This document shows positions 13,539 through 37,484 of a DNA stretch of 37,617 nt, piece by piece (position 1 is the first letter of the stretch; each line of letters begins with the position of its first letter). Location of the stretch: positions 1 through 37,617 of the forward strand of contig SCOE01000047.1 in NCBI GenBank assembly GCA_005503065.1, written 5' to 3'. The notes beneath the pieces are model-generated. The model did no database searches. It was given only the letters and a program-made list of their open reading frames with translations, and was not told where the DNA came from. The stretch comes from Comamonadaceae bacterium ALPHA2B. GTDB lineage: Bacteria > Pseudomonadota > Gammaproteobacteria > Burkholderiales > Burkholderiaceae_C. The position numbers and the translations under genes were made by a program.

Positions 13539-13551
13539 ATACGGGATCGGG

Positions 13552-13662
13552 CAGCCGAACGCAGAGGACGCGAAGGTTGCGCAGAAGTCGCAGAAGAAAT
13601 ACCAAACTTTCTGTCTTCTTCTGCGCCTTCTGCGACGCCTCTGCGCCCTCTGCGTTCGGCTG
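13552..13662. repeat. Long intergenic palindrome of CGCAGAGG units, copy 1
   Basis: The arms 13552-13598 and 13616-13662 form a nearly complete 47-base inverted repeat with a 17-base loop and only a few mismatches. Each arm begins with CAGCCGAACGCAGAGG and is built of imperfect GCGCAGAAG/CGCAGAGG units. The element starts right after the gcl stop codon. A second copy with the same outer sequence lies at 19960-20052, also just after a stop codon. It would form a very stable hairpin in the gcl-hyi transcript and may lower hyi expression or protect gcl mRNA (inference). Confidence 0.8.
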
Positions 13663-13693
13663 TCCGTTTTGCACGCCTTGAGAAAGACACAAC

Positions 13694-14473
13694 ATGCCCA
13701 GATTTGCCGCCAACCTCACCATGCTGTTCACCGAGCTGCCCTTCATGCAGCGCTTCGAGGCCGCCGCGCGCGCCGGCTTCGAGGCGGTGGAATACCTCTT
13801 TCCCTACGCCTTCAACAAGAACGAGCTGGCCACTGCGCTGAAGGCCCATGGCCTGGTGCAGGTGCTGCACAACCTGCCCGCGGGCAACTGGGAGGCAGGC
13901 GAGCGCGGCATCGCGTGCCACCCCGACCGCGTGGCCGAGTTCCGAGAGGGTGTGGGCCGGGCCATCGAGTACGCCACGACGCTGGGCTGCCCACAGCTCA
14001 ACTGCCTGGTCGGCAAGCTGCCTGCCGGCGCCACCTACCGGGACGTGCAGCCCACGCTGGTCGACAACCTGCGCTTCGCCGCGCGCGAGCTGGAGAAGGC
14101 CGGCCTGAAGCTGCTGGTCGAACCCATCAACACCTTCGACATTCCCGGCTTCTTCCTCTCGCGCACCGACCAGGCGCTGGCGCTGCTGGACGCGGTGGGA
14201 TCGGACAACCTGCGCATCCAGTACGACATCTACCACGCGCAGCGCATGGAGGGCGAACTGGCCAACACGCTCTCGACGCACCTGGCACGCATCGGCCACA
14301 TCCAGCTCGCGGACAACCCGGGCCGCGGCGAGCCGGGCACGGGGGAGATCAACTACCCGTGGCTGTTCCGGCACATCGACGCGATCGGCTACACGGGCTG
14401 GATCGGCTGCGAATACAAGCCGCGCACCACCACCACCGAAGGCCTCGGCTGGCGCCCGGCCCTCACCGCCTGA
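13694..14473 (+). CDS. hyi: Hydroxypyruvate isomerase
   Basis: A 259-residue TIM-barrel isomerase of the AP-endonuclease-2-like fold, interconverting tartronate semialdehyde and hydroxypyruvate. It matches Hyi in length (E. coli 258) and motifs: FAANLTMLFTELPFMQRFEA at the N-terminus, then LVEPINTFDIPGFFLS, QYDIYHAQRMEGEL, HIQLADNPGRGEPGTGEINY and IGCEYKPRT. These carry the conserved Glu, Asp, His and Glu metal and catalytic residues. It lies between gcl and glxR, the standard order. The long palindrome separates it from gcl. glxR starts 15 bases after its stop. Confidence 0.93.
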   Translation: MPRFAANLTMLFTELPFMQRFEAAARAGFEAVEYLFPYAFNKNELATALKAHGLVQVLHNLPAGNWEAGERGIACHPDRVAEFREGVGRAIEYATTLGCPQLNCLVGKLPAGATYRDVQPTLVDNLRFAARELEKAGLKLLVEPINTFDIPGFFLSRTDQALALLDAVGSDNLRIQYDIYHAQRMEGELANTLSTHLARIGHIQLADNPGRGEPGTGEINYPWLFRHIDAIGYTGWIGCEYKPRTTTTEGLGWRPALTA

Positions 14474-14488
14474 AGAGAAAGAAGCACC

Positions 14489-15403
14489 ATGAGCAACGCA
14501 ACGAACACCCCCCGCCGCATCGGCTTCATCGGCCTGGGCATCATGGGCACCCCCATGGCCGGCCACCTCATCGACGCCGGGCACACCCTGTTCGTGAACA
14601 CGCGCGGTGCCGTGCCAGAACCCATCTCGGGCCGGGCCGAGGCCTGCGCCAGTGCGGCGGAGGTCGCACGCCACGCGGACGTGATCTTCGTCATGGTCCC
14701 CGACACGCCCGACGTCGAGAAGGTGCTCTTCGGCGAGAACGGCGTGGCCTCTGCCCTCACCGCGGGCAAGACCGTCGTGGACTGCAGTTCCATCGACCCG
14801 ATCGCGACCCGGGACTTCGCCGCGCGCATCGCCGCGCTGGGCTGCGGGTACGTCGACGCGCCGGTCTCCGGCGGCGAGGTCGGCGCCAAGGCGGCCAGCC
14901 TGACCATCATGTGCGGCGGCGACGAGGCCGTCTTCGAAGCCGTGCGCCCCTTGCTCGAGACGATGGGCAGGAACGTGACGCGCGTGGGCGACGTGGGCGC
15001 CGGCCAGATCACCAAGGTCGCCAACCAGATCATCGTCGCGCTGAACATCGCCGCCGTGGGCGAGGCGCTGGTGTTCGCCAGCAAGGCCGGCGCCGACCCC
15101 GCCAAGGTGCGCCAGGCGCTGATGGGCGGCTTCGCGTCCAGCCGCATCCTGGAGGTGCATGGCGAACGCATGATCAACCGCACCTTCGCCCCGGGCTTTC
15201 GCATCGCACTGCACCAGAAGGACCTGAACCTCGCGATGCAGAGCGCCCGCAGCCTGGGCGTCGCGCTGCCGCAGACGGCCGGTGCGGCCCAGCTCATGAA
15301 CGCCTGCGCCGCGCTCGGGCACGCGCAGGACGACCATTCGGCCCTCGTGCGCGCCCTGGAGGCCCTGGCGCAACATCCGGTGATGCCCGATACGCATCGG
15401 TAA
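14489..15403 (+). CDS. glxR: 2-hydroxy-3-oxopropionate (tartronate semialdehyde) reductase
   Basis: A 304-residue beta-hydroxyacid dehydrogenase that reduces tartronate semialdehyde to D-glycerate with NAD(P)H. It has the Rossmann motif GFIGLGIMGTPMAGHL (residues 12-27), the substrate-binding DAPVSGGEVGAKAASL (123-138), and the catalytic lysine region GQITKVANQ with Lys176. The C-terminal helical domain includes FRIALHQKDLNLAM. Length and motifs suit GlxR/GarR. It is co-transcribed with hyi (15-base gap) and completes the glyoxylate-to-glycerate route begun by Gcl. A terminator-like hairpin follows at 15432. Confidence 0.93.
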   Translation: MSNATNTPRRIGFIGLGIMGTPMAGHLIDAGHTLFVNTRGAVPEPISGRAEACASAAEVARHADVIFVMVPDTPDVEKVLFGENGVASALTAGKTVVDCSSIDPIATRDFAARIAALGCGYVDAPVSGGEVGAKAASLTIMCGGDEAVFEAVRPLLETMGRNVTRVGDVGAGQITKVANQIIVALNIAAVGEALVFASKAGADPAKVRQALMGGFASSRILEVHGERMINRTFAPGFRIALHQKDLNLAMQSARSLGVALPQTAGAAQLMNACAALGHAQDDHSALVRALEALAQHPVMPDTHR

Positions 15404-15431
15404 ACAGAGGCTTTCGTAGTTTCACCACCCG

Positions 15432-15461
15432 GGAGAGGTGCCGCTTTGCGGTAGCCTCTCC
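15432..15461 (+). terminator. Terminator-like hairpin after glxR
   Basis: GGAGAGG ... CCTCTCC arms enclose an inner GCCGC-TTT-GCGG stem. They are followed by TTCTGCTTTT, a weak T tract. It lies 28 bases after the glxR stop and 52 before maeB, so it probably separates the glyoxylate operon from maeB. Confidence 0.55.
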
Positions 15462-15513
15462 TTCTGCTTTTCCGCAAGCAGATGTCCCGTTCCAAGAACC
15501 TAGGAGAGTCTGG

Positions 15514-17814
15514 ATGACCCAGAAGCTGTCACCGGCCGAAGAAGCGCTGCGCGATGCCGCCCGCGAATACCACCGCACGCCCGTCAAGGGCAAGATTTCG
15601 GTGACCCCCACCAAACCGCTGATGAACCAGCGCGACCTGTCGCTGGCCTATTCGCCGGGCGTGGCCTACCCGTGCCTGGACATCCAGGCCGACCCGAGCA
15701 AGGCGGCGGAGTACACGGCCCGCGGCAACCTGGTCGGCGTGGTGACCAACGGGACCGCCGTGCTGGGCCTGGGCGACATCGGCCCGCTGGCCGGCAAACC
15801 GGTGATGGAAGGCAAGGGCTGCCTGTTCAAGAAGTTCGCCGGCATCGACGTGTTCGACATCGAACTGGCCGAGCGCGACCCCGACAAGCTGGTCGACATC
15901 ATCGCGGCGCTGGAGCCCACGCTGGGCGGCATCAACCTCGAGGACATCAAGGCGCCCGAGTGCTTCTACATCGAGAAGAAGCTGCGCGAGCGCATGAACA
16001 TCCCGGTCTTCCACGACGACCAGCACGGCACGGCCATCATCTCGGCCGCGGCGCTGCTCAACGGCCTGGAACTGGTGGGCAAGAAGATCGAGGACGTGAA
16101 GATCGCCGTCTCGGGCGCCGGCGCCGCCGCCATCGCCTGCCTGGACGTGATGGTGGGCCTGGGCGCCAAGCCCGCCAACATCCACGCCTGCGACTCCAAG
16201 GGCCTGATCTACATGGGCCGCGCCGGCGGCTTCGACGAATCGAAGGCCCGCTACGCCCAGCCCGACACTGGCGCGCGCACCCTGGCCGACGTGACGAAGA
16301 ATGCCGATGTGTTCCTGGGCTGCTCGGCGCCCGGCGTGCTCACCGCCGACATGGTCAAGACCATGGCCGACCAGCCGATCATCCTCGCGTTGGCCAACCC
16401 CGAGCCCGAGATCCGCCCCGAGCTGGCCAAGGCCGTGCGGCCGGACTGCATCATCGCGACCGGCCGCTCGGACTACCCGAACCAGGTCAACAACGTCCTG
16501 TGCTTCCCCTACATCTTCCGCGGCGCGCTCGATTGCGGCGCGACCAAGATCACCGAGGAGATGAAGCTGGCCTGCGTGCGCGAGATCGCCGACCTGACCA
16601 AGGCCGACATCTCCGAGGAAGTGGCCACCGCCTACGCGGGCCAGGAGCTGTCCTTCGGGCCCGACTACATCATCCCCAAGCCCTTCGATTCGCGGCTGAT
16701 CCTGCGCATCGCGCCGGCCGTGGCCAAGGCGGCCGAAGCCTCGGGCGTGGCCACCCGGCCGATCGAGGACATGGAGGCCTACCGCCAGCACCTGACGCGC
16801 TTCGTCTACCAGACCGGCATGTTCATGCGCCCCGTGTTCAGCGCCGCCAAGGTCGCGGCAAAGAAACGCGTGGCGTACGCCGAAGGCGAGGACGACCGGG
16901 TGCTGCGCGCCGCCCAGCTGGCCGTGGACGAGGGCCTGGCATTCCCCATCCTGATCGGCCGCCCCGACATCATCGAGATGCGCGTCAAGAAGGCGGGGTT
17001 GCGCCTGCGTCTGGGGCAGGACGCCGAGATCGTCGACCCCGAGAACGACTCGCGCTTCCGCACCTACTGGGAGGCGTACCACAAGCTCATGGGCCGCCGC
17101 GGCATCACGCCCGAAGCCTCCAAGGCGATGGTGCGACGCTCCAACACCACGATCGCCGCGCTGATGGTGCACCTGGGCGACGCCGATGCCATGCTGTGCG
17201 GGCTGGTCGGGCGCTTCGACAGCCACCTCAAGATCCTGAGCCAGCTGCTGGGCAGCAAGCGCGACGCGCCCGGCTTCGCGGCCCTCAACGCGCTGACGCT
17301 GGACCGCGGCACGCTCTTCATCGCCGACACGCACGTCAACGAAGACCCGAGCGCCGAACTGCTGGCCCACATCGCGCTGATGGCCGCCGAGGAGGTGCGC
17401 CGCTTCGGCCTGCCGCCCAAGGTGGCGTTTCTCTCGCATTCCAACTTCGGGAGCTCCGAACGCGCCTCGGCCCGCAAGATGCGCGTGGCAGCCGACCTGT
17501 TCAAGCAGATGGCGCCCGACATCGAATGCGACGGCGAGATGCATGGCGACGCCGCCCTCAGCGAAGACGTGCGTACCACGGCCATGCCCGAGACCACGCT
17601 CACCGGCGAGGCCAACCTGCTGATCTGCCCGAACATCGACTCGGCCAACATCCTCTACAACGTGCTGAAGATGACGGGGGCCAACGGCGTGACGGTCGGG
17701 CCGATCATGCTCGGCGCCTCCAAGCCGGCCCACGTGCTCACCTCCTCGGCCACCGTGCGCCGGGTACTGAACATGACGGCACTGGCCGTGGCCGACGCCA
17801 ACATCCAGAAGTAG
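15514..17814 (+). CDS. maeB: NADP-dependent malic enzyme with phosphotransacetylase-like domain
   Basis: A 766-residue multi-domain malic enzyme (E. coli MaeB is 759), oxidatively decarboxylating malate to pyruvate. Residues ~20-160 form the malic N-domain with Tyr46 ([11 protein letters not shown]) and the catalytic-lysine region [16 protein letters not shown] (Lys101). The metal site is [10 protein letters not shown] (Asp168/169), and the NADP site is [10 protein letters not shown] around 199-208. Residues ~440-766 are a phosphotransacetylase-like regulatory domain ([33 protein letters not shown]) that binds acetyl-CoA in related enzymes. The ATG at 15514 is chosen for AGGAG just upstream; the frame is open well before it but codes for nothing there. 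With DctA it could turn C4 acids into pyruvate. Confidence 0.94.
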
Positions 17815-17924: not shown

Positions 17925-17968
17925 GCACCGCTTTGGCGCCCTGCTCCGGATTCGCACCAATGGCGTGC
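17925..17968 (+). promoter_or_regulatory. Pair of NtrC-like enhancer sites upstream of the ABC operon
   Basis: Two imperfect palindromes resemble the NtrC consensus GCACC-N5-GGTGC. They are GCACCGCTTTGGCGC at 17925-17939 and GCACCAATGGCGTGC at 17954-17968. The second keeps the exact GCAC-N7-GTGC core. Their centres are 29 bases apart, close to three helical turns. They lie immediately upstream of the sigma-54-type element at 17969, nearer than the usual -100 to -150. A similarly arranged pair precedes the second binding-protein gene at 25404. Confidence 0.5.
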
Positions 17969-17985
17969 GGGCACCCTTATTGCTT
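17969..17985 (+). promoter_or_regulatory. Sigma-54 (RpoN) promoter for the ABC transporter operon
   Basis: The sequence GGGCACCCTTATTGCTT carries GG (17970-17971) and GC (17982-17983) separated by exactly ten bases. GGCAC and TTGCT match the -24/-12 consensus TGGCAC-N5-TTGCW. Transcription would start near 17995, giving a 22-base leader before the ATG at 18017. Neither flanking gene encodes a sigma-54 activator, so a global one such as NtrC is likely. Confidence 0.65.
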
Positions 17986-18016
17986 GAATCGTGACATTCC
18001 TTATCCCGAGTCACCG

Positions 18017-19045
18017 ATGAACAAGCGACAACTCCTCCAGTCCTTCCTTGCCGCTTCCGCCCTCAGCTTCGGGCTGGGCACGGCCCAGGCGCAGACGACG
18101 CCGATCAAGTTCCAGCTCGACTGGCGCTTCGAAGGCCCGGCCGCCCTCTTCCTGCATCCGGCTGCCAAGGGCTACTTCAAGAATGCCGGCATCGACGTGA
18201 CCATCGACGCGGGCAACGGCTCCGGCGGCACGGTGACGCGCGTGGCCTCGGGCGCCTACGACATGGGCTTCGCCGACCTCGCGGCGTTGATGGAATTCCA
18301 CGCCAACAACCCCGACAGCCCGAACAAGCCGGTCGCGGTCATGATGGTCTACAACAACACGCCGGCCTCGGTCATGGCGCTCAAGAAGAGCGGCATCACG
18401 AAGCCCGGCGACCTCACCGGCAAGAAGCTGGGCGCGCCGGTGTTCGACGCCGGCCGCCGCGCCTTCCCGATCTTCGCCAAGGCCAACAACATCGGCGCCG
18501 TGAACTGGACGGCGATGGACCCGACGCTGCGCGAGACCATGCTGATGCGCGGCGACATCGACGCCATCACCGGCTTCACCTTCACTTCGCTGCTCAACCT
18601 GGAGGCGCGCGGCGCCAAGGCGGGCGACGTGGTGGTGCTGCCCTACCCCGACTACGGCGTGAAGCTGTACGGCAACGTCATCATCGCCTCGCCCAAGCTC
18701 ATCAAGGAGAAGCCCGAAGTCGTCAAGGCCTTCCTCTCGGCCTTCGCCAAGGGCGCCAAGGAAGTCATCGCCAATCCGGCGGTGGCGATCGAGTCCGTGA
18801 AGGCGCGCGACGGCATCATCGACAGCAAGCTGGAGACGCGCCGCCTGCAACTGGCGATCGACACCGTCATCAACAGCCCCGATGCCCGGGCCGAGGGCTT
18901 CGGCGTGGTGAATCCTGGCCGCCTGTCGCTGATGGCCTCGCAAGTGTCCGACGCCTTCAACACCAAGACGCGCGTGAGCTCCGACGCCGTGTGGACCAGC
19001 GCGCTGCTGCCGCCCACGCCTGAACTGGCCATTCTGAAGAAGTAA
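18017..19045 (+). CDS. ABC transporter substrate-binding protein, NMT1/THI5-like
   Basis: A 342-residue periplasmic binding protein. A Sec signal peptide (MNKRQLLQSFLAASALSFGL, cleaved near AQA|QTT at residue 25) precedes an NMT1/SsuA-like domain: KFQLDWRFEGPAALFLHPAA, GYFKNAGIDVTIDAGNGSGG, VASGAYDMGFADLAALMEF and PDYGVKLYGNVIIASPKLI. Related proteins bind taurine, sulfonates, nitrate, pyrimidine precursors or purines, and the ligand cannot be read directly. It is the first gene of an importer operon with an ATPase at 19131 and a permease at 20083. A sigma-54 promoter points to nitrogen control. A second NMT1 protein with closely similar motifs at 25627 sits under a xanthine riboswitch, so a purine ligand is plausible. 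Confidence 0.9.
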   Translation: MNKRQLLQSFLAASALSFGLGTAQAQTTPIKFQLDWRFEGPAALFLHPAAKGYFKNAGIDVTIDAGNGSGGTVTRVASGAYDMGFADLAALMEFHANNPDSPNKPVAVMMVYNNTPASVMALKKSGITKPGDLTGKKLGAPVFDAGRRAFPIFAKANNIGAVNWTAMDPTLRETMLMRGDIDAITGFTFTSLLNLEARGAKAGDVVVLPYPDYGVKLYGNVIIASPKLIKEKPEVVKAFLSAFAKGAKEVIANPAVAIESVKARDGIIDSKLETRRLQLAIDTVINSPDARAEGFGVVNPGRLSLMASQVSDAFNTKTRVSSDAVWTSALLPPTPELAILKK

Positions 19046-19061
19046 GCCCGGCCAGCGGAAT

Positions 19062-19118
19062 CGCTCTTATTTTTATAGCGGCCTGCGCCCGCCCCATGGG
19101 CGTCGCAGGCCATTTTCA
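19062..19118 (+). repeat. Dispersed GATAGC-hairpin repeat, copy C (possible attenuator)
   Basis: CGCTCTTATTTTTATAGCG forms the small inverted head. It is followed by a hairpin with the arms GGCCTGCG and CGCAGGCC around CCCG...GGGCG, then ATTTTCAT. It lies between the binding-protein stop at 19045 and the ATPase start at 19131 within one operon. It may therefore reduce read-through and keep the binding protein in excess over the membrane parts. Confidence 0.65.
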
Positions 19119-19130
19119 TATCCGAAGTTC

Positions 19131-19949
19131 ATGGCCGATCAAGACACCCCCTTCGTCGACTTCCAGGACGTCTGGCTCGCCTACAACGAGCAGCTGCTGC
19201 GCGAGAACCACTTCGCCGTCGAAGCCATCGACCTGAAGGTGAAGCAAGGCGAGTTCATCGCCATCGTCGGCCCCTCGGGCTGCGGCAAGTCCACCTTCAT
19301 GAAGCTCACCACGGGGCTGAAGATGCCCTCGATGGGCCGCATCCGCATCGACGGCCAGCCGGTGACCGGGCCGCTCAAGATCTCGGGCATGGCCTTCCAG
19401 GCGCCCTCGCTGCTGCCGTGGCGCACCACGGTCGACAACGTGCTGCTGCCGCTGGAGATCGTCGAGCCCTATCGCTCCAGCTTCAAGAGCAAGCGCAAGG
19501 AGTACGAGGAGCGCGCCCGCCGCCTGCTGCAGAAGGTGGGCCTGGGTGGCTACGAGGACAAGTTCCCCTGGCAGCTCTCGGGCGGCATGCAGCAGCGGGC
19601 CTCGATCTGCCGCGCGCTCATCCACGAGCCCAAGATGCTGCTGCTGGACGAGCCCTTCGGTGCCCTGGACGCCTTCACCCGCGAGGAGCTGTGGTGCATC
19701 CTGCGCGACCTCTGGACCGAGCAGAAATTCAACGTGATCCTGGTCACGCACGACCTGCGCGAGTCGGTGTTCCTCGCGGACACCGTGTACGTCATGAGCA
19801 AGTCGCCCGGCCGCTTCGTCGTGCGGCGAGAGATCGAACTGCCCCGCCCGCGCGACCTCGAGGTGACCTACACCAAGGAGTTCAGCGACATCGTGCACGA
19901 GCTGCGCAGCCACATCGGGGCCATGCGCAAGACGACCGCTGTCGCATGA
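19131..19949 (+). CDS. ABC transporter ATP-binding protein (SsuB/TauB-like)
   Basis: A 272-residue ATPase with all ABC motifs: Walker A GPSGCGKST (about residues 46-54), Q-loop GMAFQAPSLLPWRTT, signature LSGGMQQRASICRAL, Walker B MLLLDEPFGALD, and the switch histidine in VILVTHDLRES. The SsuB/TauB/NrtD-like class pairs with NMT1-type binding proteins. A 12-residue insertion (PYRSSFKSKRKEYEE region) follows the Q-loop. Translation starts 12 bases after the dispersed repeat without a strong Shine-Dalgarno. It energises import with the permease at 20083. Confidence 0.92.
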   Translation: MADQDTPFVDFQDVWLAYNEQLLRENHFAVEAIDLKVKQGEFIAIVGPSGCGKSTFMKLTTGLKMPSMGRIRIDGQPVTGPLKISGMAFQAPSLLPWRTTVDNVLLPLEIVEPYRSSFKSKRKEYEERARRLLQKVGLGGYEDKFPWQLSGGMQQRASICRALIHEPKMLLLDEPFGALDAFTREELWCILRDLWTEQKFNVILVTHDLRESVFLADTVYVMSKSPGRFVVRREIELPRPRDLEVTYTKEFSDIVHELRSHIGAMRKTTAVA

Positions 19950-19959
19950 ATTCGGGATC

Positions 19960-20052
19960 GGGCAGCCGAACGCAGAGGGCGCAGAGGAAAAGAAAAATGA
20001 ATTCCTTCTGCGCCCTCTGCGAAACCTCCGCGCCCTCTGCGTTCGGCTGCCC
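19960..20052. repeat. Long intergenic palindrome of CGCAGAGG units, copy 2
   Basis: The outer 28 bases (from GGGCAGCCGAACGCAGAGGG, 19960) pair with the segment ending CGGCTGCCC at 20052 with one mismatch. The inner part is less regular than in copy 1. The sequence between the upstream stop codon and the arm (TGAATTCGGGATC) is almost identical to that after gcl (TGAATACGGGATC). The element lies between the ATPase and permease genes. Confidence 0.8.
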
Positions 20053-20082
20053 GTCTTTATCGGCCTCCCAAAGAGCTCCACT

Positions 20083-20850
20083 ATGAACAACAAGCAACTC
20101 GAACGCTGGTCGCCCTGGCTGCTGCTGGTGGCGGTGATCGTGCTGTGGCAGATCGTCTGCTCGGCCTTCAACGTCTCGGACTTCATCTTTCCCAGCCCCT
20201 GGCGCATCTGGACGCAGTTCTGGGAGTTCAAGACCATCATCGCGGGCCACGCGTGGCGCACCTTCTGGGTGACGATGGCGGGCTTCGGCCTCGCGATCGT
20301 CGTGGGCGTGCTGCTGGGCTTCGTGATCGGCAGCTCGCGGCTGGCCTACGCGGCGATGTACCCGCTCATGACCGCCTTCAACGCATTGCCCAAGGCAGCC
20401 TTCGTGCCGATCCTGGTGGTGTGGTTCGGCATCGGCATCGGGCCGGCCATCCTCACGGCCTTCCTCATCAGCTTCTTCCCCATCATGGTCAACATCGCGA
20501 CCGGGCTGGCCACGCTGGAGCCGGAGCTGGAGGACGTGCTGCGCGTGCTCGGCGCCAAGCGCTGGGACGTGCTCATGAAGATCGGCCTGCCACGATCCAT
20601 GCCGTACTTCTACGCCTCGCTCAAGGTCGCGATCACTCTGGCCTTCGTCGGCACCACCGTGTCGGAGATGACGGCCGCCAACGAAGGCATCGGCTATTTG
20701 CTCATCAGCGCCGGCTCGGCGATGCAGATGGGCCTGGCCTTCGCCGGCCTGATGGTGGTGGGCGCCATGGCGATGGTCATGTACGAACTCTTCAGCGCGA
20801 TCGAGAAGCGCACCACCGGCTGGGCGCACCGCGGCTCGCAAGGAGGTTGA
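20083..20850 (+). CDS. ABC transporter permease (SsuC/TauC-like)
   Basis: A 255-residue inner-membrane permease with about six membrane segments. It has the binding-protein-dependent transport EAA loop near ATLEPELEDVLRVLGAKRWDVL (residues ~145-166), where the coupling helix contacts the ATPase. Other family features are FPSPWRIWTQFWEF at the N-terminus, MTAFNALPKAAFVPILVVWFG, and AFVGTTVSEMTAANEGIGYL. It completes the importer begun at 18017. The long palindrome in the preceding gap may weaken its expression. An A/G-rich AAGAGCTCC stretch upstream gives a poor Shine-Dalgarno. Confidence 0.92.
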   Translation: MNNKQLERWSPWLLLVAVIVLWQIVCSAFNVSDFIFPSPWRIWTQFWEFKTIIAGHAWRTFWVTMAGFGLAIVVGVLLGFVIGSSRLAYAAMYPLMTAFNALPKAAFVPILVVWFGIGIGPAILTAFLISFFPIMVNIATGLATLEPELEDVLRVLGAKRWDVLMKIGLPRSMPYFYASLKVAITLAFVGTTVSEMTAANEGIGYLLISAGSAMQMGLAFAGLMVVGAMAMVMYELFSAIEKRTTGWAHRGSQGG

Positions 20851-21973: not shown

Positions 21974-22225
21974 ATGCGGACCATGACGGCCAACCAGGCC
22001 AAGACCCAGTTCGGCGCCTTCGTCGACATGGCGCAGAAGGAGCCCGTGCGCGTGCTGCGGCACGACCGCGTTGTGGGCGTGCTGGTGTCGCCCAGCGACT
22101 ACGAGGCGATGCGCGCTTTCTACGCCAACCGGCTGGCGCACACGCTGGACCGCACGGCCGCCAGGGCCGAAGCAGCCGGCCTCACCCAGGAAGGCATCGA
22201 CCAGTTGCTGGCCGATGAGAGTTGA
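21974..22225 (+). CDS. Phd/YefM-family antitoxin
   Basis: An 83-residue antitoxin. MRTMTANQAKTQFGAFVDMA and EPVRVLRHDRVVGVLVSPSD make the Phd/YefM N-terminal DNA-binding fold. The C-terminal helix (AHTLDRTAARAEAAGLTQEG onward) would wrap the toxin. The start at 21974 is set by GGAGG five bases upstream. The gene overlaps the PIN toxin gene by 11 bases, the usual translational coupling. A palindromic operator lies in its promoter. Confidence 0.88.
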   Translation: MRTMTANQAKTQFGAFVDMAQKEPVRVLRHDRVVGVLVSPSDYEAMRAFYANRLAHTLDRTAARAEAAGLTQEGIDQLLADES

Positions 22226-22643
22226 CGCCGCGCTGGTGATCGACTCGAACGTGCTGATCAGCGCCGCCCTGTCGGCCACCTCGCCGCCTGCGCGCATCGT
22301 GCGGCATGCCTTGGCGCATGGGCGGCTTCTGTTTTCCGATGCCACCTTCGCCGAACTGCAGTCCCGGCTCTGGCGCCCCAAGTTCGACCGCTACCTCGAC
22401 CTGGAAGACCGCAAGGCGATCCTGCATGACCTCGGCGCTGCCGGCGTCTGGGTCGACATTCCCGCGCAGCTCGCGGCCCGCGGCTTCTCGCGCGATGCCG
22501 ATGACGACAAGTTCATCCACGTGGCGCTGGCCGCATCGGCCGACGCGATCGTGAGCGGCGACCAGGATCTGCTCGTGCTCTCGCGCATCGGGGACCTGCC
22601 AGTCCTCACGCCCGGTCAGGCCTGCGCCTTGCTCGCCTGCTGA
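22215..22643 (+). CDS. PIN-domain toxin (putative ribonuclease)
   Basis: A 142-residue PIN protein of the 'putative toxin, PIN family' type (COG1569-like). The acidic active site that binds Mg2+ is complete: Asp10 in ALVIDSNVLISA, Glu47 in DATFAELQSRL, the Asp96-98 cluster in FSRDADDDKFIHVALA, and Asp116 in AIVSGDQDLLVL. It would cleave RNA unless neutralised by the overlapping antitoxin. It is probably intact, with no truncation. Pairing of a PIN toxin with a Phd-type antitoxin is common. Confidence 0.88.
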   Translation: MRVDAALVIDSNVLISAALSATSPPARIVRHALAHGRLLFSDATFAELQSRLWRPKFDRYLDLEDRKAILHDLGAAGVWVDIPAQLAARGFSRDADDDKFIHVALAASADAIVSGDQDLLVLSRIGDLPVLTPGQACALLAC

Positions 22644-22647: not shown

Positions 22648-23145
22648 ATGCCACTTACACCCCAAGCACTCACCCCCGACCAGTGCGCCCGCCACCTGCG
22701 GCGCGCCGACGCCGTGGCGCGCCGCGCGATGGCCATGGGCCGCCATCCCTTCGGCGCGCTGCTGCTGGCGCCCGACGGCGAAACCGTGCTCGCCGAGCAG
22801 GGCAACATCGACACGGTGAACCACGCCGAGGCCACGCTGGCCCGCACGGCCGCGGCCAACTATCCCGGCGCCTATCTCGCGCAATGCACGCTGGTGACCA
22901 CCTTCGAGCCCTGCGCCATGTGCGCGGGCACGGTGTACTGGGCCGGCATCGGCCGGGTGCTGTACGGCGCGGAAGAGGCGGCGCTGCTGGCGCTGACCGG
23001 CGACCATCCCGAGAACCCGACGCTGAGCCTGCCCTGCCGCGAGGTGTTCGCGCGCGGCCAGCGTGCGGTGGAGGTGATCGGTCCGGTCGAGGCGGTGGCC
23101 GAGGAGATGGTGGCCACGCACCGGGGTTTCTGGCAGAGCCGCTGA
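22648..23145 (+). CDS. Nucleoside/guanine deaminase of the CMP/dCMP deaminase fold
   Basis: A 165-residue zinc deaminase. His59-Ala-Glu61 (TVNHAEATL) and Pro-Cys89-x-x-Cys92 (FEPCAMCAG) make the zinc and proton-shuttle site. Regular sequence around MGRHPFGALLLAPDG and VYWAGIGRVLYGAEE places it with the guanine-deaminase/TadA-like group. The genuine tRNA-editing TadA is unlikely because TadA has a different N-terminus and an RNA-binding tail. The likely reaction is guanine to xanthine plus ammonia, which would connect it to the xanthine riboswitches nearby (inference). It starts four bases after the PIN toxin stop, without a strong Shine-Dalgarno. A similar enzyme lies at 32308. Confidence 0.82.
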   Translation: MPLTPQALTPDQCARHLRRADAVARRAMAMGRHPFGALLLAPDGETVLAEQGNIDTVNHAEATLARTAAANYPGAYLAQCTLVTTFEPCAMCAGTVYWAGIGRVLYGAEEAALLALTGDHPENPTLSLPCREVFARGQRAVEVIGPVEAVAEEMVATHRGFWQSR

Positions 23146-24211: not shown

Positions 24212-25201
24212 TCAGTATTTCTTGGCGAAGTTCGCCGCGATGCGCTGCTTGAGGTAGTCGCCCGCCGTGATCGACGGGTACTTGCCCGAGGGCGATTCGA
24301 TCAGCGTGTCGCGGTTCGCCTGGCAGAAGAAGGCGATGCTGTAGCGCGGCCCCATGTACTCGCCCGGCTGCGGGTTGCGCACGCGGTGGAAGTTGCTGGG
24401 CAGCACGTCGTCGCTCCAGCGCATCAGCATGTCGCCGATGTTGCAGGTGATCGCGTCCTCGTCGGGCGGGATCGACGTCCATTCCTGCGCCTCGAACTCC
24501 TTGCCCGGGCACACCTGCAGCCCGCCCTGGCCCTGGCGCTGATACAGCAGCGTTAGGCAGTCGAAATCCGTGTGCGCACCGGCGCGCCACAGGTCGAGCT
24601 TGTCCTGCACCTCGGCGGGAATTGCGTAGTAGTGCAGCAGCCGCAGCGTGCTCTGGTACTCGGGGCTGGACTTGTCGTGCGCGCGGGTGAAGAAGGACTC
24701 GTCGAAGCCCATCTTCAGCGCGAAGCACGACAGCACCTTCATGCCGATCTCCCAGCTCTTCTGCTCGAAGGCCAGCATCGCCTGCTTGAAGCCGGGCAGC
24801 TCCTCTTCGGTCGGGAAGAGCCTGCCCATCAGCGGCAGCGTGATCTGGTAGCTCTCCTTCTGGTCGGCCGTGCCGGTGGACGGCCGCACCTGCGCCTTGC
24901 TCTCCCAGCCGGCGTTGTTGGCCAGCGGGTACTGCGACTTCACCGATTCGGGCAGCGCGAAGAAGCGCTCGGCCTCGGCAAAGGCCGCACGGATGTCGGC
25001 CAGCGGCACGCCATGGTCGGCCAGCTGGAAGAAGCCGACGTCGATGGCCGCATCCCAGAGCTGGTCGGCGATCTCGGCCTTGCGGTTGTCGAAGTCGGCC
25101 AGGCTGATACGGCGGACTTCGCGTGTGTTCGTTTCCGAGCCCATCGCGCCCATGCGCGATTCCTTGCTCAGTTCGTGGAGGGCGTAGGTGGCCTCGGTCA
25201 T
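24212..25201 (-). CDS. Isopenicillin N synthase-like Fe(II)/2-oxoglutarate oxygenase 1
   Basis: A 329-residue oxygenase of the IPNS/2OG-Fe(II) superfamily. The iron triad is His210 and Asp212 (AGAHTDFDCLTLLYQ) and His272 (NFHRVRNP). The co-substrate pair Arg286/Ser288 is in PRYSIAFF. The N-terminal DIOX_N-like region includes AAIDVGFFQLADHGVPLADI. Such proteins usually oxidise small molecules using 2-oxoglutarate, and the substrate here is unknown. The ATG at 25201 has AGGAG seven bases upstream. Its leader contains a xanthine (NMT1-type) riboswitch at 25240-25311, so xanthine or urate probably controls it, and the enzyme may act on a purine (inference). It is transcribed divergently from a second riboswitch-controlled unit that encodes a related oxygenase. 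Confidence 0.88.
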   Translation of the reverse strand: MTEATYALHELSKESRMGAMGSETNTREVRRISLADFDNRKAEIADQLWDAAIDVGFFQLADHGVPLADIRAAFAEAERFFALPESVKSQYPLANNAGWESKAQVRPSTGTADQKESYQITLPLMGRLFPTEEELPGFKQAMLAFEQKSWEIGMKVLSCFALKMGFDESFFTRAHDKSSPEYQSTLRLLHYYAIPAEVQDKLDLWRAGAHTDFDCLTLLYQRQGQGGLQVCPGKEFEAQEWTSIPPDEDAITCNIGDMLMRWSDDVLPSNFHRVRNPQPGEYMGPRYSIAFFCQANRDTLIESPSGKYPSITAGDYLKQRIAANFAKKY

Positions 25202-25239
25202 GTGGCTGCTCCTGAAAGTCGTGTGGGGAAGAAAGACCT

Positions 25240-25311
25240 CAAGAGCAATTCCCGGCCATTGATGCATCGCGCCGTGGCGATGCATGCAGCGGTTGAACGC
25301 TTCTACTCTTG
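25240..25311 (-). promoter_or_regulatory. Xanthine riboswitch (NMT1 motif), for oxygenase 1
   Basis: On the minus strand the leader reads CAAGAGTAGAAGCGTTCA, then a variable hairpin, then GGCCGGGAATTGCTCTTG. CAAGAG and CTCTTG pair as the closing stem. The internal-loop segments GTAGAAGCGTTCA and CCGGGAATTGCTC match the conserved core of the NMT1-motif xanthine riboswitch as I recall it. The variable part contains a 9-base perfect stem (ATGCATCGC/GCGATGCAT, 25262-25285) with a 6-base loop. The aptamer ends 26 bases before the AGGAG of the oxygenase gene. This class is known to bind xanthine, and urate more weakly, and mostly turns genes off. Confidence 0.85.
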
Positions 25312-25403
25312 CGTGCATTTTCACCTTGTCGCCCCCGCCCCCGCCAGCTTTTCACGAAGCCCGATGGCCGCGCGGGGGCATCCGCCCCGGCATGGAACGC
25401 GCC

Positions 25404-25439
25404 GCACCGTGACGGCGCAGGCAGGCACAACGCCGGTGC
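25404..25439 (+). promoter_or_regulatory. Pair of NtrC-like enhancer sites upstream of the second NMT1 gene
   Basis: GCACCGTGACGGCGC (25404-25418) and GCACAACGCCGGTGC (25425-25439) both resemble GCACC-N5-GGTGC. The second has the exact GCAC-N7-GTGC core. Their centres are 21 bases apart, two helical turns. They lie about 30-65 bases upstream of the -24 element at 25468. The same combination occurs in front of the first NMT1 gene at 17925. Confidence 0.5.
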
Positions 25440-25467
25440 CGCCGAAGCGGCGCCGGCGCCCTCGCCA

Positions 25468-25484
25468 TTGGCACGGAAGCTGCA
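25468..25484 (+). promoter_or_regulatory. Sigma-54 (RpoN) promoter for the second NMT1 operon
   Basis: TTGGCACGGAAGCTGCA matches the consensus YTGGCACG-N4-TTGCW at all but one defined position (CTGC for TTGC). GG (25470-25471) and GC (25482-25483) are ten bases apart. The predicted start, near 25495, coincides with the 5' base of the riboswitch closing stem at 25494, which independently supports both calls. Confidence 0.75.
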
Positions 25485-25493
25485 CGCCCTCGC

Positions 25494-25546
25494 CCACGGA
25501 GTAGAAGCGTTCAGCGGCCCCAAAGCCGCCCGGAAATTGCTCTTGG
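25494..25546 (+). promoter_or_regulatory. Xanthine riboswitch (NMT1 motif), for the second NMT1 operon
   Basis: The plus-strand leader has CCACGGAG and CTCTTGG as the closing stem with one bulged C. The core GAGTAGAAGCGTTCA is followed by a short hairpin GCGGC-CCCAAA-GCCGC, then CCGGAAATTGCTC. Both core segments are the same as in the divergent aptamer at 25240-25311 (15 of 15 and 12 of 13), while the stem and hairpin sequences differ but still pair, which is evidence for a conserved RNA. It matches the minimal NMT1/xanthine aptamer as I remember it. The aptamer begins at the predicted transcript 5' end, and the start codon is 80 bases further on. Confidence 0.9.
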
Positions 25547-25562
25547 ACGCGCCGACGCGTCC
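25545..25562 (+). other. Hairpin overlapping the riboswitch 3' edge (possible expression platform)
   Basis: GGACGCG-CCGA-CGCGTCC is a perfect 7-base stem. Its first two bases (25545-25546) are also the last two of the aptamer closing stem, so the two structures exclude each other at the base. There is no T run, so simple termination is unlikely. It could pass a ligand signal to the downstream leader. Confidence 0.45.
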
Positions 25563-25626
25563 GCCAGCGGCGCCGCACGGTGCGTGCCCGTTGTCCCAGG
25601 TCCTGCCCACCCGGAGAGCTTTCGCC

Positions 25627-26667
25627 ATGTCCCGTTCCGCCCTTCCCCGCCGCGCCTTCCTGCGCGCCACCGGCGCCGCCACCCTGCTGGCCGCCACGCC
25701 CTTCGTCCGCGCGCAGGGCAGCCTGCAGAAGTTCAAGTTCAACCTCGGCTGGAAGGTCGAGGCCACCGCTGCCGGCTTCCTGCTAGCGCAGCAGCGCGGC
25801 TACTACAAGGACGCCGGGCTCGACGTGACCATCGACACCGGCAACGGCTCGGCCGCGGCCATCAGCCTGGTGGGCAGCGGCGCCTACGACTGCGCCTCGG
25901 CCGACCTTGCGACCATGATCGAGTTCAACGTCAACAACCCGCAGGCGAAGCTGGCGGCGGTCGCGATCCAGTACGACCTCAACCCCAACTCGATCCTGGT
26001 GCGCAAGGACGGCCCGATCAAGAAGCCCGCCGACCTCGCCGGCAAGACCATCCTCGGCCAGCCCTTCAACGCCTCGCGCAAGCTCTTCCCCGTCTTCGCC
26101 AAGGCGCAGGGCTTCGACGCCACGGGCGTCAAGTGGGAGAACGTGGCGCCGGACATCGGCGACACGCGCTTCGTCAAGGGCGACTTCGACGCCTCGGCCT
26201 ACTTCTACTTCACCGGCCTGCTCAACCTCAAGGCCCGCGGCATGGGGCCGGAGCAGATCACGATGTTCCGCTTCTCCGACTACGGCATGAAGTCGTACGG
26301 CAACGGCCTGGTCGCCAACGCCAAGAGCATGGAGCAGGCCGAGGCGATGAAGGCCTTCGTCAAGGCCACCACGCGCGGCTGGATCGACGCCATCGCCGAC
26401 CCCAAGGCGGGCGCTGCCGCCGTCAAGACGCGCGAGCCGCTGGCCAACGAGGAGATCGAGTTCGAGCGCCTGAAGCTCATCGTCGACGGCAGCATGAAGA
26501 CCGCCGGCACGCGCAGCCACGGCTGGGGCGCGGCCACGCCCGAGCGCCTGCAGGCCACCATCGCCGAGACGGTCGATGCCTTCGGCCTCAAGAGCACGCC
26601 CGCCGTGGCCGACATCTGGACGGACCGCTTCCTGCCCGGGGCGGCCGACCGCAAGCTCAAGGCCTGA
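25627..26667 (+). CDS. NMT1/THI5-like substrate-binding protein with Tat-type signal
   Basis: A 346-residue periplasmic binding protein similar to that at 18017: KFNLGWKVEATAAGFLLAQQ, GYYKDAGLDVTIDTGNGSAA, LVGSGAYDCASADLATMIEF and FSDYGMKSYGNGLVANAKSM. The N-terminus PRRAFLRATGAATLLAATPF has a twin-arginine motif (RRAFLR), so it is probably exported folded via Tat, unlike the first protein. The ATG at 25627 has GGAGAG upstream. It has no permease or ATPase of its own and may share the importer at 19131-20850 (inference). A sigma-54 promoter and a xanthine riboswitch control it, making xanthine or a related purine the best ligand guess. Oxygenase 2 follows after 14 bases. Confidence 0.9.
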   Translation: MSRSALPRRAFLRATGAATLLAATPFVRAQGSLQKFKFNLGWKVEATAAGFLLAQQRGYYKDAGLDVTIDTGNGSAAAISLVGSGAYDCASADLATMIEFNVNNPQAKLAAVAIQYDLNPNSILVRKDGPIKKPADLAGKTILGQPFNASRKLFPVFAKAQGFDATGVKWENVAPDIGDTRFVKGDFDASAYFYFTGLLNLKARGMGPEQITMFRFSDYGMKSYGNGLVANAKSMEQAEAMKAFVKATTRGWIDAIADPKAGAAAVKTREPLANEEIEFERLKLIVDGSMKTAGTRSHGWGAATPERLQATIAETVDAFGLKSTPAVADIWTDRFLPGAADRKLKA

Positions 26668-26681
26668 ACGGCGGACGGACG

Positions 26682-27653
26682 ATGTCCATCCCCGTCATCG
26701 ACCTGCGCGACGCGCTCGTGCCCGGCGGCGCGCGCCGCGCCGAAGTCGCCGCGCAGCTGCGTGAGGCGGCCATGGCCTCGGGCTTCTTCTACGCGGCGCA
26801 CCACGGCGTACCGGCCGAGCAGGTGGCGCAGCAGTTCGCGCTCGCGCGCCGGCTGCTCGACCTGCCGCCCGGGACCCGGCAGGCGCTGGACATGCGCCGC
26901 TCGCCCACCATGCGCGGCTTCGAGAACCTGGGCGCGCAGACCCTCGACGCGGACGCCCGGCCCGACCTGAAGGAAAGCTTCTACTGCGGCATGGCCTGGC
27001 CCGAGGACCATCCCTACGTCGTCGCCGGCTACCAGACCTACGGCCACAACCAGTGGCCCGCCGAGGTGCCCGAGGCGCCCGCGCAGTGCGAGGCCTACAT
27101 CCGCACCCTGCTCACGCTCTCGCGCCAGCTCATGCAGTTGCTGGCACTGTCGCTCGACCTGCCCGAGGACTACTTCGACGCCACCAGCGACAGCCCCATG
27201 GTCACGCTGCGCATGGTGCGCTACCCGGCCCATCCCGAAGGCGCCGACGAGCGCACCTTCGGCGCCGGCGCCCACACCGACTGGGGCGCGCTCACCCTGC
27301 TCGCGCAGGATGCACACGGCGGCCTGGAGGTGCAGATGCCCGACGGCAGCTGGGTGGCCGCCACGCCGGTGCCCGACTACTTCGTCGTCAACCTCGGCGA
27401 CATGATCCCGCGCTGGACCAACGGCCTGTACCACTCCAACCCGCACCGCGTGCGCAACCTGCATTCGAGCGGCGCGCCGCGCTACTCGATCCCCTTCTTC
27501 TACGAGCCCGACTACTTCGCCCGCATCGAGGCCGTGCCCGGCACCGTGCCGCCCGGCGAGGCGCCGCGCTTTGCGCCATGCACCGCCGGCGAGCACCTGC
27601 AGGAGATGTACCGCAGGACCTATGGCCTGCCGAAGAAGACGGCGACGGCATGA
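26682..27653 (+). CDS. Isopenicillin N synthase-like Fe(II)/2-oxoglutarate oxygenase 2
   Basis: A 323-residue oxygenase of the same family as oxygenase 1 but clearly divergent. The iron ligands are His198, Asp200 (GAGAHTDWGALTLLAQD) and His255 (NPHRVRNL), with Arg267/Ser269 in PRYSIPFFYEPD. The N-terminal region MSIPVIDLRD and SGFFYAAHHGVPAEQV is the standard DIOX_N start. It lies 14 bases after the riboswitch-controlled binding-protein gene and overlaps the VOC gene by four bases (ATGA), so the three form one operon. It would be induced or repressed together with purine uptake. The substrate is unproven; a purine or a purine breakdown product is suggested by control and context. Confidence 0.88.
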   Translation: MSIPVIDLRDALVPGGARRAEVAAQLREAAMASGFFYAAHHGVPAEQVAQQFALARRLLDLPPGTRQALDMRRSPTMRGFENLGAQTLDADARPDLKESFYCGMAWPEDHPYVVAGYQTYGHNQWPAEVPEAPAQCEAYIRTLLTLSRQLMQLLALSLDLPEDYFDATSDSPMVTLRMVRYPAHPEGADERTFGAGAHTDWGALTLLAQDAHGGLEVQMPDGSWVAATPVPDYFVVNLGDMIPRWTNGLYHSNPHRVRNLHSSGAPRYSIPFFYEPDYFARIEAVPGTVPPGEAPRFAPCTAGEHLQEMYRRTYGLPKKTATA

Positions 27654-28081
27654 AGCTCTGGTTCAACCTGCTGTGCCGCGACGTGCCGGCGCAGTTCGGC
27701 TTCTACCGCGCCGTGCTCGGCCTGCCCGAGGCCGAGGCCAGCCGCTCGCCCATCTACCGAGCGCTGGAGACGCCCGACTTCCAGTTCGGCTTCAACGCCG
27801 CGCCCGCCTACGAGTTGCTGGGCCTGGCCGATCGGCAGCCCACGGACGGCGAGCGCGTGCCCGTCGTCGCCTACGCCACGCTGATGCTCGATGGCCCGGA
27901 CGCGGTGGATGCGGCGGTGCAGGCCGCGCAGGATGCCGGCGGCCGCATCGTGAAGCCGCCCTACGCCACCTACTACGGCCAATGGCAGGCCGTGCTGGCC
28001 GACCCGGAGGACAACGTCTTCCGCGTCTCGGCGATCGGCCTGCCGACCGGCGTGCAAGCACCGCCGCTGCCGCAGGCCTGA
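27650..28081 (+). CDS. VOC-family (glyoxalase-like) protein
   Basis: A 143-residue single vicinal-oxygen-chelate protein: MKLWFNLLCRDVPAQFGFYR at the start, then VLGLPEAEASRSPIYRAL and AVLADPEDNVFRVSAIGL, the paired beta-alpha-beta-beta-beta modules. Typical members bind a metal and act as lyases, isomerases or dioxygenases, or merely bind ligands. It is translationally coupled to oxygenase 2 by an ATGA overlap, so it probably acts on the same or next compound. No sequence feature identifies the substrate. Confidence 0.82.
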   Translation: MKLWFNLLCRDVPAQFGFYRAVLGLPEAEASRSPIYRALETPDFQFGFNAAPAYELLGLADRQPTDGERVPVVAYATLMLDGPDAVDAAVQAAQDAGGRIVKPPYATYYGQWQAVLADPEDNVFRVSAIGLPTGVQAPPLPQA

Positions 28082-32178: not shown

Positions 32179-32307
32179 AGCACCGCCCGTGCCGGGTGCC
32201 CGCGCGCGCTCGGCGCGCCGTCTGGCATGCGTCGTGCATCCGATGGCGCCATCCTGCGCCTGTGTCGCTTCTTCCCGGTCACCGCCCGCCGGCGGTGCAC
32301 CCGCACC

Positions 32308-32823
32308 ATGCTTTTCTCACCCACCCTTCCCCCCGAAACCCCGCTCGACGAGCGCGACGGCCGCTACCTGCGCAAGGCCATCGCCTGGTCGCACGCCGGC
32401 CGCCGCCGCGGCAACCGCCCCTTCGGCGCCGTGATCGTCTCGGCCGACGGCCAGGTGCTGGCCGAGGACTACTGCAACAGCACCGAGACCGGCGACGTCA
32501 CCGGCCACGCCGAGACCAACGCCGTGCGCAAGCTCGCCGGCCGCGGCTTCACCCGCGAGCAACTGGCCGGGGCGACGATCTACTCCTCGGCCGAGCCCTG
32601 CGTGATGTGCGCCGGCGCCATCTTCTGGGCCAACATCGGCCGGGTGGTCTTCGGCATCGATGCCGAGCGGCTGCGTGCCTTCCGCGGCGAGCGCGCCGAC
32701 CAGCGCGACGCCGAGCTGTCCTGCCGCGACGTCTTCCGCGCCTCGCCGCATCCGATCGAATGCATCGGCCCCGCGCTGCTGGGCGAAGCCGGCGCCGCGC
32801 ACGACGGCGCCTGGAAGACCTGA
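32308..32823 (+). CDS. Second nucleoside/guanine deaminase-like protein
   Basis: A 171-residue zinc deaminase of the same fold as that at 22648. His67-Ala-Glu69 (TGHAETNAVRKLAG) and Pro-Cys98-x-x-Cys101 (AEPCVMCAGAIFWANIGRVV) make the active site. The N-terminal GRRRGNRPFGAVIVSADGQV differs from TadA. Sequence identity to the first deaminase is limited to the catalytic regions, so the two may take different bases (guanine, cytosine or another). The ATG at 32308 is preferred over one 27 codons earlier because the latter would add a basic non-conserved segment; neither has a strong Shine-Dalgarno. Confidence 0.82.
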   Translation: MLFSPTLPPETPLDERDGRYLRKAIAWSHAGRRRGNRPFGAVIVSADGQVLAEDYCNSTETGDVTGHAETNAVRKLAGRGFTREQLAGATIYSSAEPCVMCAGAIFWANIGRVVFGIDAERLRAFRGERADQRDAELSCRDVFRASPHPIECIGPALLGEAGAAHDGAWKT

Positions 32824-36653: not shown

Positions 36654-37484
36654 ATGCCCTGGCACGCCCGACTCGACATCGCCTACCACCACGACCACGG
36701 CCGCAGCCTCGCGCGCTTTCGCCACGAAGGGCCGCTGCGCATCCTGCAAAGCCTCTACCCCGAGGGCGACGCCATCTGCCACAACGTGCTGGTGCACCCG
36801 CCCGGGGGCCTGGTGGGCGGCGACACGCTCGACATCGCGGTGGAGGCGGCCGCCGGCAGCCATGGCCTGATCACCACGCCGGGCGCCTCGCGCTTCTACC
36901 GCTCCGACGGCGAATTGGCCCTGCAGCGCACGCGACTGAACGTCGCCGCCGGCGCCCGGCTCGAGTGGCTGCCGCTGGAGGCGCTGTGCTACAGCGGCTG
37001 CCGCGCCGAGAACCGGCTGCAGATGCAGGTGGCGCCCGGCGGCGAACTGATCGGCTGGGACATCACGGCGCTGGGCCTGCCGCTGGCCGGCCAGCCCTTC
37101 CGGGCCGGGCGCTACCAGCAGCACATCGAACTGCCCGGCGTGTGGCTGGAGCGCGGGCGCATCGATGCCGACGACGCGCGCCTGCTGCACTCCCCGCTGG
37201 GCCTGGCCGGCCATCAGTGCCTGGCCTCGCTCTTCCACGTGGTCGGCGAGCCGATGAAGCGCACGCGCCGCGACCGGCTGCTGGAGATCGCCCGCGACGC
37301 GCTGGGCGGCCATGCGCTCGACGAGAGCGCCGGGGCCACTGCGCCCAATGCGCAGGTCGTGGTGGTGCGCGTGCTGGCGCCCCTGGTCGAACCGGCCGTG
37401 CAATTGCTGCGCACGGTGTGGGCCGGCTGGCGCAGGGACCTGTGGGGCTTGGCGGCCACCCCGCCGCGCATCTGGTCGACCTGA
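36654..37484 (+). CDS. ureD: Urease accessory protein UreD (UreH)
   Basis: A 276-residue UreD protein, the scaffold that with UreF and UreG delivers nickel to urease. Family motifs are present: LARFRHEGPLRILQSLYPEG, CHNVLVHPPGGLVGGDTLDI, HGLITTPGASRFYRSDG and LPLEALCYSGCRAENRLQMQ. The usual length is 260-290. There is no Shine-Dalgarno; TAGACT ends six bases before the ATG, which could be a leaderless promoter. The following 133 bases do not contain ureA, which usually follows, so either the operon is split here or it continues further right. Urea would come from purine breakdown. Confidence 0.92.
   Translation: MPWHARLDIAYHHDHGRSLARFRHEGPLRILQSLYPEGDAICHNVLVHPPGGLVGGDTLDIAVEAAAGSHGLITTPGASRFYRSDGELALQRTRLNVAAGARLEWLPLEALCYSGCRAENRLQMQVAPGGELIGWDITALGLPLAGQPFRAGRYQQHIELPGVWLERGRIDADDARLLHSPLGLAGHQCLASLFHVVGEPMKRTRRDRLLEIARDALGGHALDESAGATAPNAQVVVVRVLAPLVEPAVQLLRTVWAGWRRDLWGLAATPPRIWST

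Follow-up and report, generated by a model that had tools for sequence, protein, structure and literature searches.

Mutually exclusive oxygenase genes behind xanthine riboswitches in Burkholderiales, and a tentative role in purine demethylation

A 37,617-nucleotide contig of Comamonadaceae bacterium ALPHA2B (SCOE01000047.1; the window, contig C41 of a 6.0 Mb genome in 91 contigs) encodes two isopenicillin N synthase (IPNS)-type 2-oxoglutarate (2OG)-Fe(II) oxygenases, designated ox1 and ox2, on either side of a pair of xanthine (NMT1) riboswitches. In related genomes that bear this riboswitch we find either ox1 or a Rieske oxygenase of an unrelated family, and not both. We read the pattern as non-orthologous displacement, in which one reaction would be served by two oxygenases. 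As a tentative assignment, held with somewhat less than even confidence, ox1 may be a 2OG oxygenase that acts on a free purine base, most likely demethylating a methylated purine and delivering guanine or xanthine.

The two aptamers (RF03054) lie back to back between ox1 and ox2, both over the gathering score of 36, and a search of the whole 6.0 Mb genome found no further RF03054 riboswitch. The ox1 start lies 37 nt downstream of the minus-strand aptamer, while the plus-strand aptamer is followed by genes for an NMT1-type binding protein, ox2, and a VOC-fold protein. Both oxygenase reading frames are complete, with intact HxD...H and RxS motifs. The arrangement described in the initial annotation, two IPNS-like oxygenases flanking a riboswitch pair, with ox1 directly behind one aptamer and ox2 in an operon headed by the other, thus stands.

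An association of this riboswitch with pcbC-type genes, for which purine substrates were predicted, was made by Yu and Breaker 2020 (PMC7373994), whose available text likens the dioxygenases linked to the riboswitch to hpxD and hpxE, leaves their exact function unestablished, and reports xanthine, urate, and 8-azaxanthine as ligands. The same text describes two adjacent riboswitches in opposing orientation in H. intermedia S1, together with NMT1, NMT1, pcbC, and tadA genes, and an OFF response for one H. intermedia leader that belongs to an opposed pair. The system studied here has the same aptamer and gene types (pcbC, NMT1 binding protein, tadA), and both the riboswitch-oxygenase association and the general purine idea are therefore already published. 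The new points are the displacement pattern, the presence of XdhB, of xanthine dehydrogenase (XDH), in all sampled ox1 genomes, and the surroundings of some ox2 relatives, which resemble the ndm clusters of caffeine degraders. Neither the exclusion between 2OG and Rieske enzymes nor the presence of XDH throughout is reported in the available text of that paper, beyond which no paper on IPNS-type purine oxygenases was among the matches listed (at most 20 per search) from the open-licence PMC literature.

Mutual exclusion of ox1 and a Rieske oxygenase

Across 200 genomes of the family, the riboswitch was found in 19 of 25 genomes with ox1 and in 20 of 175 without it (p 3e-11), in a search whose stricter filters may miss weak matches. 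In an order-wide sample of 399 genomes, 17 matched the riboswitch, 13 of them above cut-off, and eight had ox1, seven of the eight having both; four of these eight also belong to the family sample, and outside the family two of three ox1 genomes carry the riboswitch. Homologues of ox1 thus co-occur with the riboswitch, as the initial annotation anticipated, rather than mostly lacking it. GTDB contigs supplied 54 ox1 loci, many of them close relatives. A covariance model built from 20 riboswitches found the element in 41 (E up to 0.01), and a core pattern allowing up to two mismatches found it in 43, the two extra being weak Acinetobacter matches; one locus with no match (L043) starts at a contig edge. 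Plasmid-borne relatives of ox1 (60-75% identical) have the riboswitch in six of seven fetched records, from Cupriavidus, Rahnella, Klebsiella, Pantoea, Qingshengfaniella, and Agrobacterium. The seventh, the ox1 locus of Streptomyces sp. NBC_01324, outside the Proteobacteria, has no detectable riboswitch; on this plasmid the ox1 orthologue (63%) is directly followed by a xanthine permease gene (L131 8950-11311). Six loci, L120-L125 (genomes G449, G465, G473, G513, G564, and G572), likewise gave no riboswitch match, and in five of them ox1 is the third gene of an operon for a binding protein, a deaminase, and ox1.

The 39 riboswitch-bearing genomes of the family divide into 19 with ox1, 19 with the Rieske gene, none with both, and one with neither (p 3e-10). 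At the genus level, 14 genera have ox1 and 18 have the Rieske gene, with one genus in common by way of different species (p 5e-7). The genomes are related, so these p-values overstate independence; the exclusion pattern itself spans 31 genera. Among the 20 riboswitch-bearing genomes without ox1, the Rieske oxygenase lies directly behind the aptamer in 16, and in three more, which match the query more loosely (57-59% identity), it lies about 1 kb downstream with a binding-protein gene in between. Of the 19 ox1 genomes with the riboswitch, 18 have it no more than 300 nt 5' of ox1 (the other at 3.3 kb); for the Rieske gene the figure is 16 of 19. A search of all 200 genomes with the Rieske protein found 24 at 55% identity or better, one of them split across contigs, 19 with and five without the riboswitch; two ox1 genomes (G449 and G497) contain Rieske paralogues at 42-48%, which were left out of the count. 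Among 34 dereplicated ox1 loci (<90% identity, drawn from the 54 GTDB loci and seven plasmid loci), none was found to have a Rieske gene of this kind (>50%). The two kinds of locus have transporter and deaminase partners in common, a TadA-type deaminase being present in 13 of 19 Rieske loci, a set that includes some short contigs.

Two Rieske genes in tandem stand about 1 kb behind a riboswitch and binding-protein gene in G443 (C14:271309-273367) and G553 (C1:349082-351137), near L097 and L110. In G469, the genome in which the search found neither ox1 nor the Rieske gene, a riboswitch lies directly 5' of a cytosine-deaminase-like amidohydrolase (L101, 3142-4414; best NCBIfam match PRK07583, below cut-off), and two TadA-type deaminase matches lie further along.

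The displacing protein has Rieske and VanA_C domains. Its PDB matches are headed by SxtT and SxtDIOX, and the methylxanthine demethylases NdmA and NdmB, its nearest solved purine enzymes, are also among the top. Its identity to Rieske proteins from ndm-like clusters is 28-31% (29-31% for the full-length ones), and to an annotated HpxD, whose annotation we take as given, 28%. We rejected HpxD as its identity, since that reference is 51-54% identical to three hpxD-like proteins.

The ox1 protein, its partner genes, and candidate substrates

Against Pfam, ox1 scores 59.8 bits for PF14226 and 75.5 bits for PF03171 (cut-offs 27.3 and 23), and ox2 scores 93.2 and 84.9 bits; neither matches an NCBIfam family. 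The motifs of ox1 are H210-T-D212...H272 and R286-Y-S288, in which D212, H272, R286, and S288 are invariant and H210 nearly invariant over 40 aligned sequences; those of ox2, H198-T-D200...H255 and R267-Y-S269, are invariant over 30. The two proteins are only 30% identical and therefore not recent duplicates. The nearest solved relative of ox1, both by sequence and by model, is thymine-7-hydroxylase (T7H) of Neurospora, which oxidizes thymine to 5-carboxyuracil; the two are 33-34% identical in structure alignment, a comparison made through PDB alignments only. Ox1 keeps the fold, the metal and 2OG residues, the base-contacting Asn87 (Asn96 in ox1), Arg190 (Arg187), and an aromatic sandwich in which Phe292 is retained and Tyr217 becomes Phe213. 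Two base-contact residues are altered, Glu122 to Gln119 and Asn294 to Gln294, and the bacterial purine context also differs from that of T7H. A T7H-type role for ox2 was considered and set aside: Asn87 and Glu122 correspond to Met77 and Tyr101, and the fold ranks tie.

The initial annotation noted neither XDH nor urate oxidase and proposed that one or both oxygenases act on xanthine, urate, or a methylated purine. The absence holds inside the window and fails in the genome, where another contig (C5) encodes XdhB (55784-58102; TIGR02965, 1257 bits, cut-off 849.5) as well as a urate oxidase domain of the PuuD type (82171-83076; PF06181, 432 bits); a search of the genome for classic uricase (PF01014) gave no match. 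XdhB occurs in 169 genomes of the family sample of 200 (E-value limit 1e-150; 167 of them exceed the cut-off), in 25 of 25 with ox1 against 144 of 175 others (p 0.017). Because XdhB is found in all ox1 genomes, the oxygenase pathway would run beside XDH and not instead of it. That ox1 or ox2 takes the place of XDH or uricase by oxidizing xanthine or urate consequently appears improbable, and we rejected such replacement. A precedent for the chemistry exists in fungal XanA, a TauD-type protein that hydroxylates xanthine with 2OG. XanA resembles ox1 and ox2 in its 2OG and Fe(II) chemistry and purine context and differs in protein type: a Pfam scan (E 0.001) of ox1 and ox2 returns PF03171 and PF14226 only, with no TauD domain, so neither is of the XanA type. 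The purine setting of the earlier proposal survives, with a methylated purine fitting best and xanthine or urate forming its weakest branch.

An alternative reaction is ring hydroxylation, in which ox1 and the Rieske enzyme would both hydroxylate an unmethylated purine, for example hypoxanthine to xanthine, as reported for Klebsiella HpxDE. The displacing enzyme is like HpxDE in being of Rieske type and in suggesting an oxygenase route within purine breakdown. The published comparison with hpxD and hpxE speaks for this alternative, as do two plasmids, P. putida pKF715A and Acinetobacter pFA319, on which IPNS-type 2OG oxygenases adjoin hpxD-like genes and HpxO. On the other hand, the displacing protein is no closer to HpxD than to NdmA-like proteins, and with XdhB in every ox1 genome, unlike the HpxDE situation, a second hypoxanthine or xanthine hydroxylase would presumably be redundant. 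We regard ring hydroxylation as unlikely, though worth keeping in view.

A deaminase gene lies within 6 kb of ox1 in 22 of the 34 dereplicated loci, TadA-type in 17 and amidohydrolase-type in six, one locus having both. The two TadA/guanine-deaminase-type deaminases of the window, cda1 and cda2, best match entries named 'CMP/dCMP deaminase, zinc-binding', which we take to be of the Msd type, and next the B. subtilis-type guanine deaminase. The amidohydrolase accompanies ox1 in alpha- and gamma-proteobacterial loci and exceeds the NF009059/PRK12393 cut-off in all five tested. For the one amidohydrolase compared, the nearest structures are 2paj (the best PDB match, 3.4e-124) and 8-oxoguanine deaminase; 2paj, a putative cytosine/guanine deaminase according to its PDB file, is presumably an isoxanthopterin deaminase. 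This pairing would suit a substrate that only resembles a purine and has a 2-amino-4-oxopyrimidine half, for example a pterin. Against such a compound stand the ligands reported for the riboswitch and the xanthine-type NCS2 permease genes close by in several loci, and we give it only a small chance. The common denominator of the deaminases would be a 2-aminopurine, that is, a guanine derivative.

Under the demethylation reading, we infer a pathway in which the NMT1-type ABC transporter would import the substrate and ox1 would oxidize the methyl group of a methylguanine or methylxanthine with 2OG. The products would be guanine or xanthine, plus formaldehyde, and the purine would pass to the deaminase and XDH. 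In relatives, the unrelated Rieske oxygenase in the same slot would do the work of ox1, while ox2 would perform a different oxidation in the same area, alongside either enzyme. NdmA and NdmB are among the nearest solved structures to the displacing Rieske enzyme; unlike the Ndm route, ox1 as a 2OG enzyme would need no electron-transfer partner, and no ndm genes are seen in the window. On a plasmid record labelled Klebsiella pneumoniae strain 176 (L128 8974-10834), a gene of the GFA family (glutathione-dependent formaldehyde-activating type) is annotated beside ox1, a possible hint of formaldehyde from one record only.

Ox2, the VOC protein, and other features of the window

At an E-value limit of 1e-100, ox2 is present in 15 genomes of the family sample of 200, and the riboswitch accompanies it in 13 (p 7e-9). 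Ten of the 15 have ox1 and four have the Rieske gene, three of those four bearing the riboswitch. Since ox2 coexists with either enzyme, it probably carries out a different step. Tandem units in L098 (G452) and L108 (G537) join a transporter-ox2-VOC unit to a Rieske-deaminase unit, each with its own xanthine riboswitch, which shows that each arm of the divergent pair in the window is a module independent of the other. The VOC protein was proposed to act after the oxygenases; in 24 aligned sequences it has neither a conserved His nor an evident metal ligand set, which makes a role as a metal-dependent enzyme unlikely.

On annotated plasmids all relatives of ox2 are below 60% identical. The closest (47%, Agrobacterium) lies 3' of an ABC transporter, beside creatininase-family and RidA genes. 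Relatives at 43-45% adjoin ndm-like clusters on a Klebsiella plasmid, Paraburkholderia caffeinilytica CF1 p1, and P. putida pKF715A, clusters that contain Rieske oxygenase genes, a reductase, a glutathione S-transferase, and an NCS2 permease; the label ndm-like rests on gene content and one species name, and the one reductase checked has no name in NCBIfam. Another relative in this range, on Acinetobacter pFA319, stands among three 2OG oxygenases, a pbuX-type permease, and HpxO. The wider stretch of Acinetobacter seifertii pFA319 (L141 5114-19492) holds three IPNS-type 2OG oxygenases, two hpxD-like Rieske genes, a xanthine-type permease, HpxO, and a urease subunit gene.

The source genome is close to Xenophilus aerolatus, and ox1 is 94-98% identical in loci L009-L013. 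Features of the window are collected in Table 1. Directly 5' of cda1 is a PIN-domain protein gene (22071-22643; TIGR00305, toxin-antitoxin type). A malic enzyme with a phosphotransacetylase-like domain follows gcl-hyi-glxR, in the frame of an over-long open reading frame (13501-17814). A UreD urease accessory protein gene (36654-37484) lies at the contig end, and more urease genes may be on another contig.

Table 1. Positions of selected features in the window
Feature	Position	Strand	Remarks
Xanthine permease (NCS2, pbuX)	4989-6476	plus	TIGR03173, 519.6 bits vs cut-off 414.15
gcl, hyi, glxR (glyoxylate to glycerate)	11745-15403	plus	downstream end of purine breakdown
ABC transporter: second NMT1-type binding protein, ATPase, permease	17933-20850	plus	adjoins ox1 in several relatives
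cda1, TadA/guanine-deaminase-type deaminase	22648-23145	plus	adjoins ox1 in several relatives
ox1, IPNS-type 2OG-Fe(II) oxygenase, 329 aa	24212-25201	minus	complete reading frame; PF14226 + PF03171
Xanthine (NMT1) riboswitch aptamer of ox1	25238-25313	minus	RF03054, 44.2 bits
Xanthine (NMT1) riboswitch aptamer of transporter-ox2-VOC operon	25494-25547	plus	RF03054, 50.3 bits
sbpA, NMT1-type ABC substrate-binding protein	25627-26667	plus	PF09084, 125.8 bits
ox2, IPNS-type 2OG-Fe(II) oxygenase, 323 aa	26682-27653	plus	complete reading frame; PF14226 + PF03171
VOC-fold protein without conserved metal ligands	27650-28081	plus	overlaps ox2 by 4 nt
cda2, second TadA/guanine-deaminase-type deaminase	32227-32823	plus	shares an operon with ox1 or the Rieske gene in some relatives

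Riboswitch control and the weight of the evidence

The sign of riboswitch control over ox1 bears directly on whether xanthine is its product or its substrate. The window's ox1 has a Shine-Dalgarno sequence, AGGAGC, complementary to the 3' strand of the aptamer's P1 stem. In computed folds without P1 it pairs with that strand at probability 1.0, and forcing P1 raises its unpaired value from 0.00 to 0.51. Because the Shine-Dalgarno sequence is freed once P1 forms, an ON switch is predicted for ox1. Such a fold would suit a xanthine-consuming enzyme, the reading judged improbable above. Among leaders folded from start codons picked by script, a first count (threshold 0.05) gave 29 of 41 ox1 leaders as ON-like and three as opposite; transporter leaders, folded as a control, exposed a bias in the measure. 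After removal of near-duplicates, at threshold 0.1, ON-like and OFF-like leaders numbered 13 and four of 28 for ox1, nine and one of 15 for the Rieske gene, and 12 and five of 27 for transporters. Ox1 and Rieske leaders together exceed transporter leaders in ON-like folds at p 0.043 (one-sided), and an own-versus-other duplex test gave p 0.16 for ox1, 0.02 for Rieske, and 0.42 for transporter leaders. ON-like folding is as common in transporter leaders as in ox1 leaders, so the measure is not discriminating and lends the xanthine-consuming reading little.

Several observations weigh against a demethylating ox1. The ON-like leader of the window's ox1 fits product repression badly, and the riboswitch is lacking in six of 25 ox1 genomes and five of 24 Rieske genomes. 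T7H mutants at Asn87 or Glu122 are not severely impaired in activity on thymine, so that sharing the Asn says little about the substrate; likeness to the T7H fold is itself weakly specific, with ox2 also tying (T7H 34.5, best match 34.8). For the Rieske protein, identities of 28-31% to proteins of ndm-like clusters and 28% to HpxD leave homology undecided between demethylation and ring hydroxylation, and SxtT, a slightly better match than NdmA or NdmB, is a hydroxylase. The closest ox2 relative, in Agrobacterium, lies outside any ndm-like cluster, and an ndm-like stretch of P. putida pTmex has no 2OG gene listed.

A broader proposal would make ox1 a T7H-like demethylase of free methylpurines, repeatedly exchanged with NdmA-like Rieske demethylases and switched ON by xanthine through its own riboswitch, within a general, overlooked class of IPNS-type 2OG oxygenases of purine alkaloids that includes the ox2 relatives of ndm-like clusters. 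Taken whole, this is doubtful. The narrower reading, demethylation of a methylated purine by ox1, remains the one we tentatively prefer.

The substrates of the riboswitch-controlled oxygenases are left open in the available text of Yu and Breaker 2020 (PMC7373994). The one-or-other pattern of two unrelated oxygenase families with common neighbours reduces the matter to a single question, namely which purine both oxidize. If it is a methylated purine, these bacteria would have a simple route for methylpurines that uses 2OG, iron, and O2, parallel to the multi-component Ndm route.

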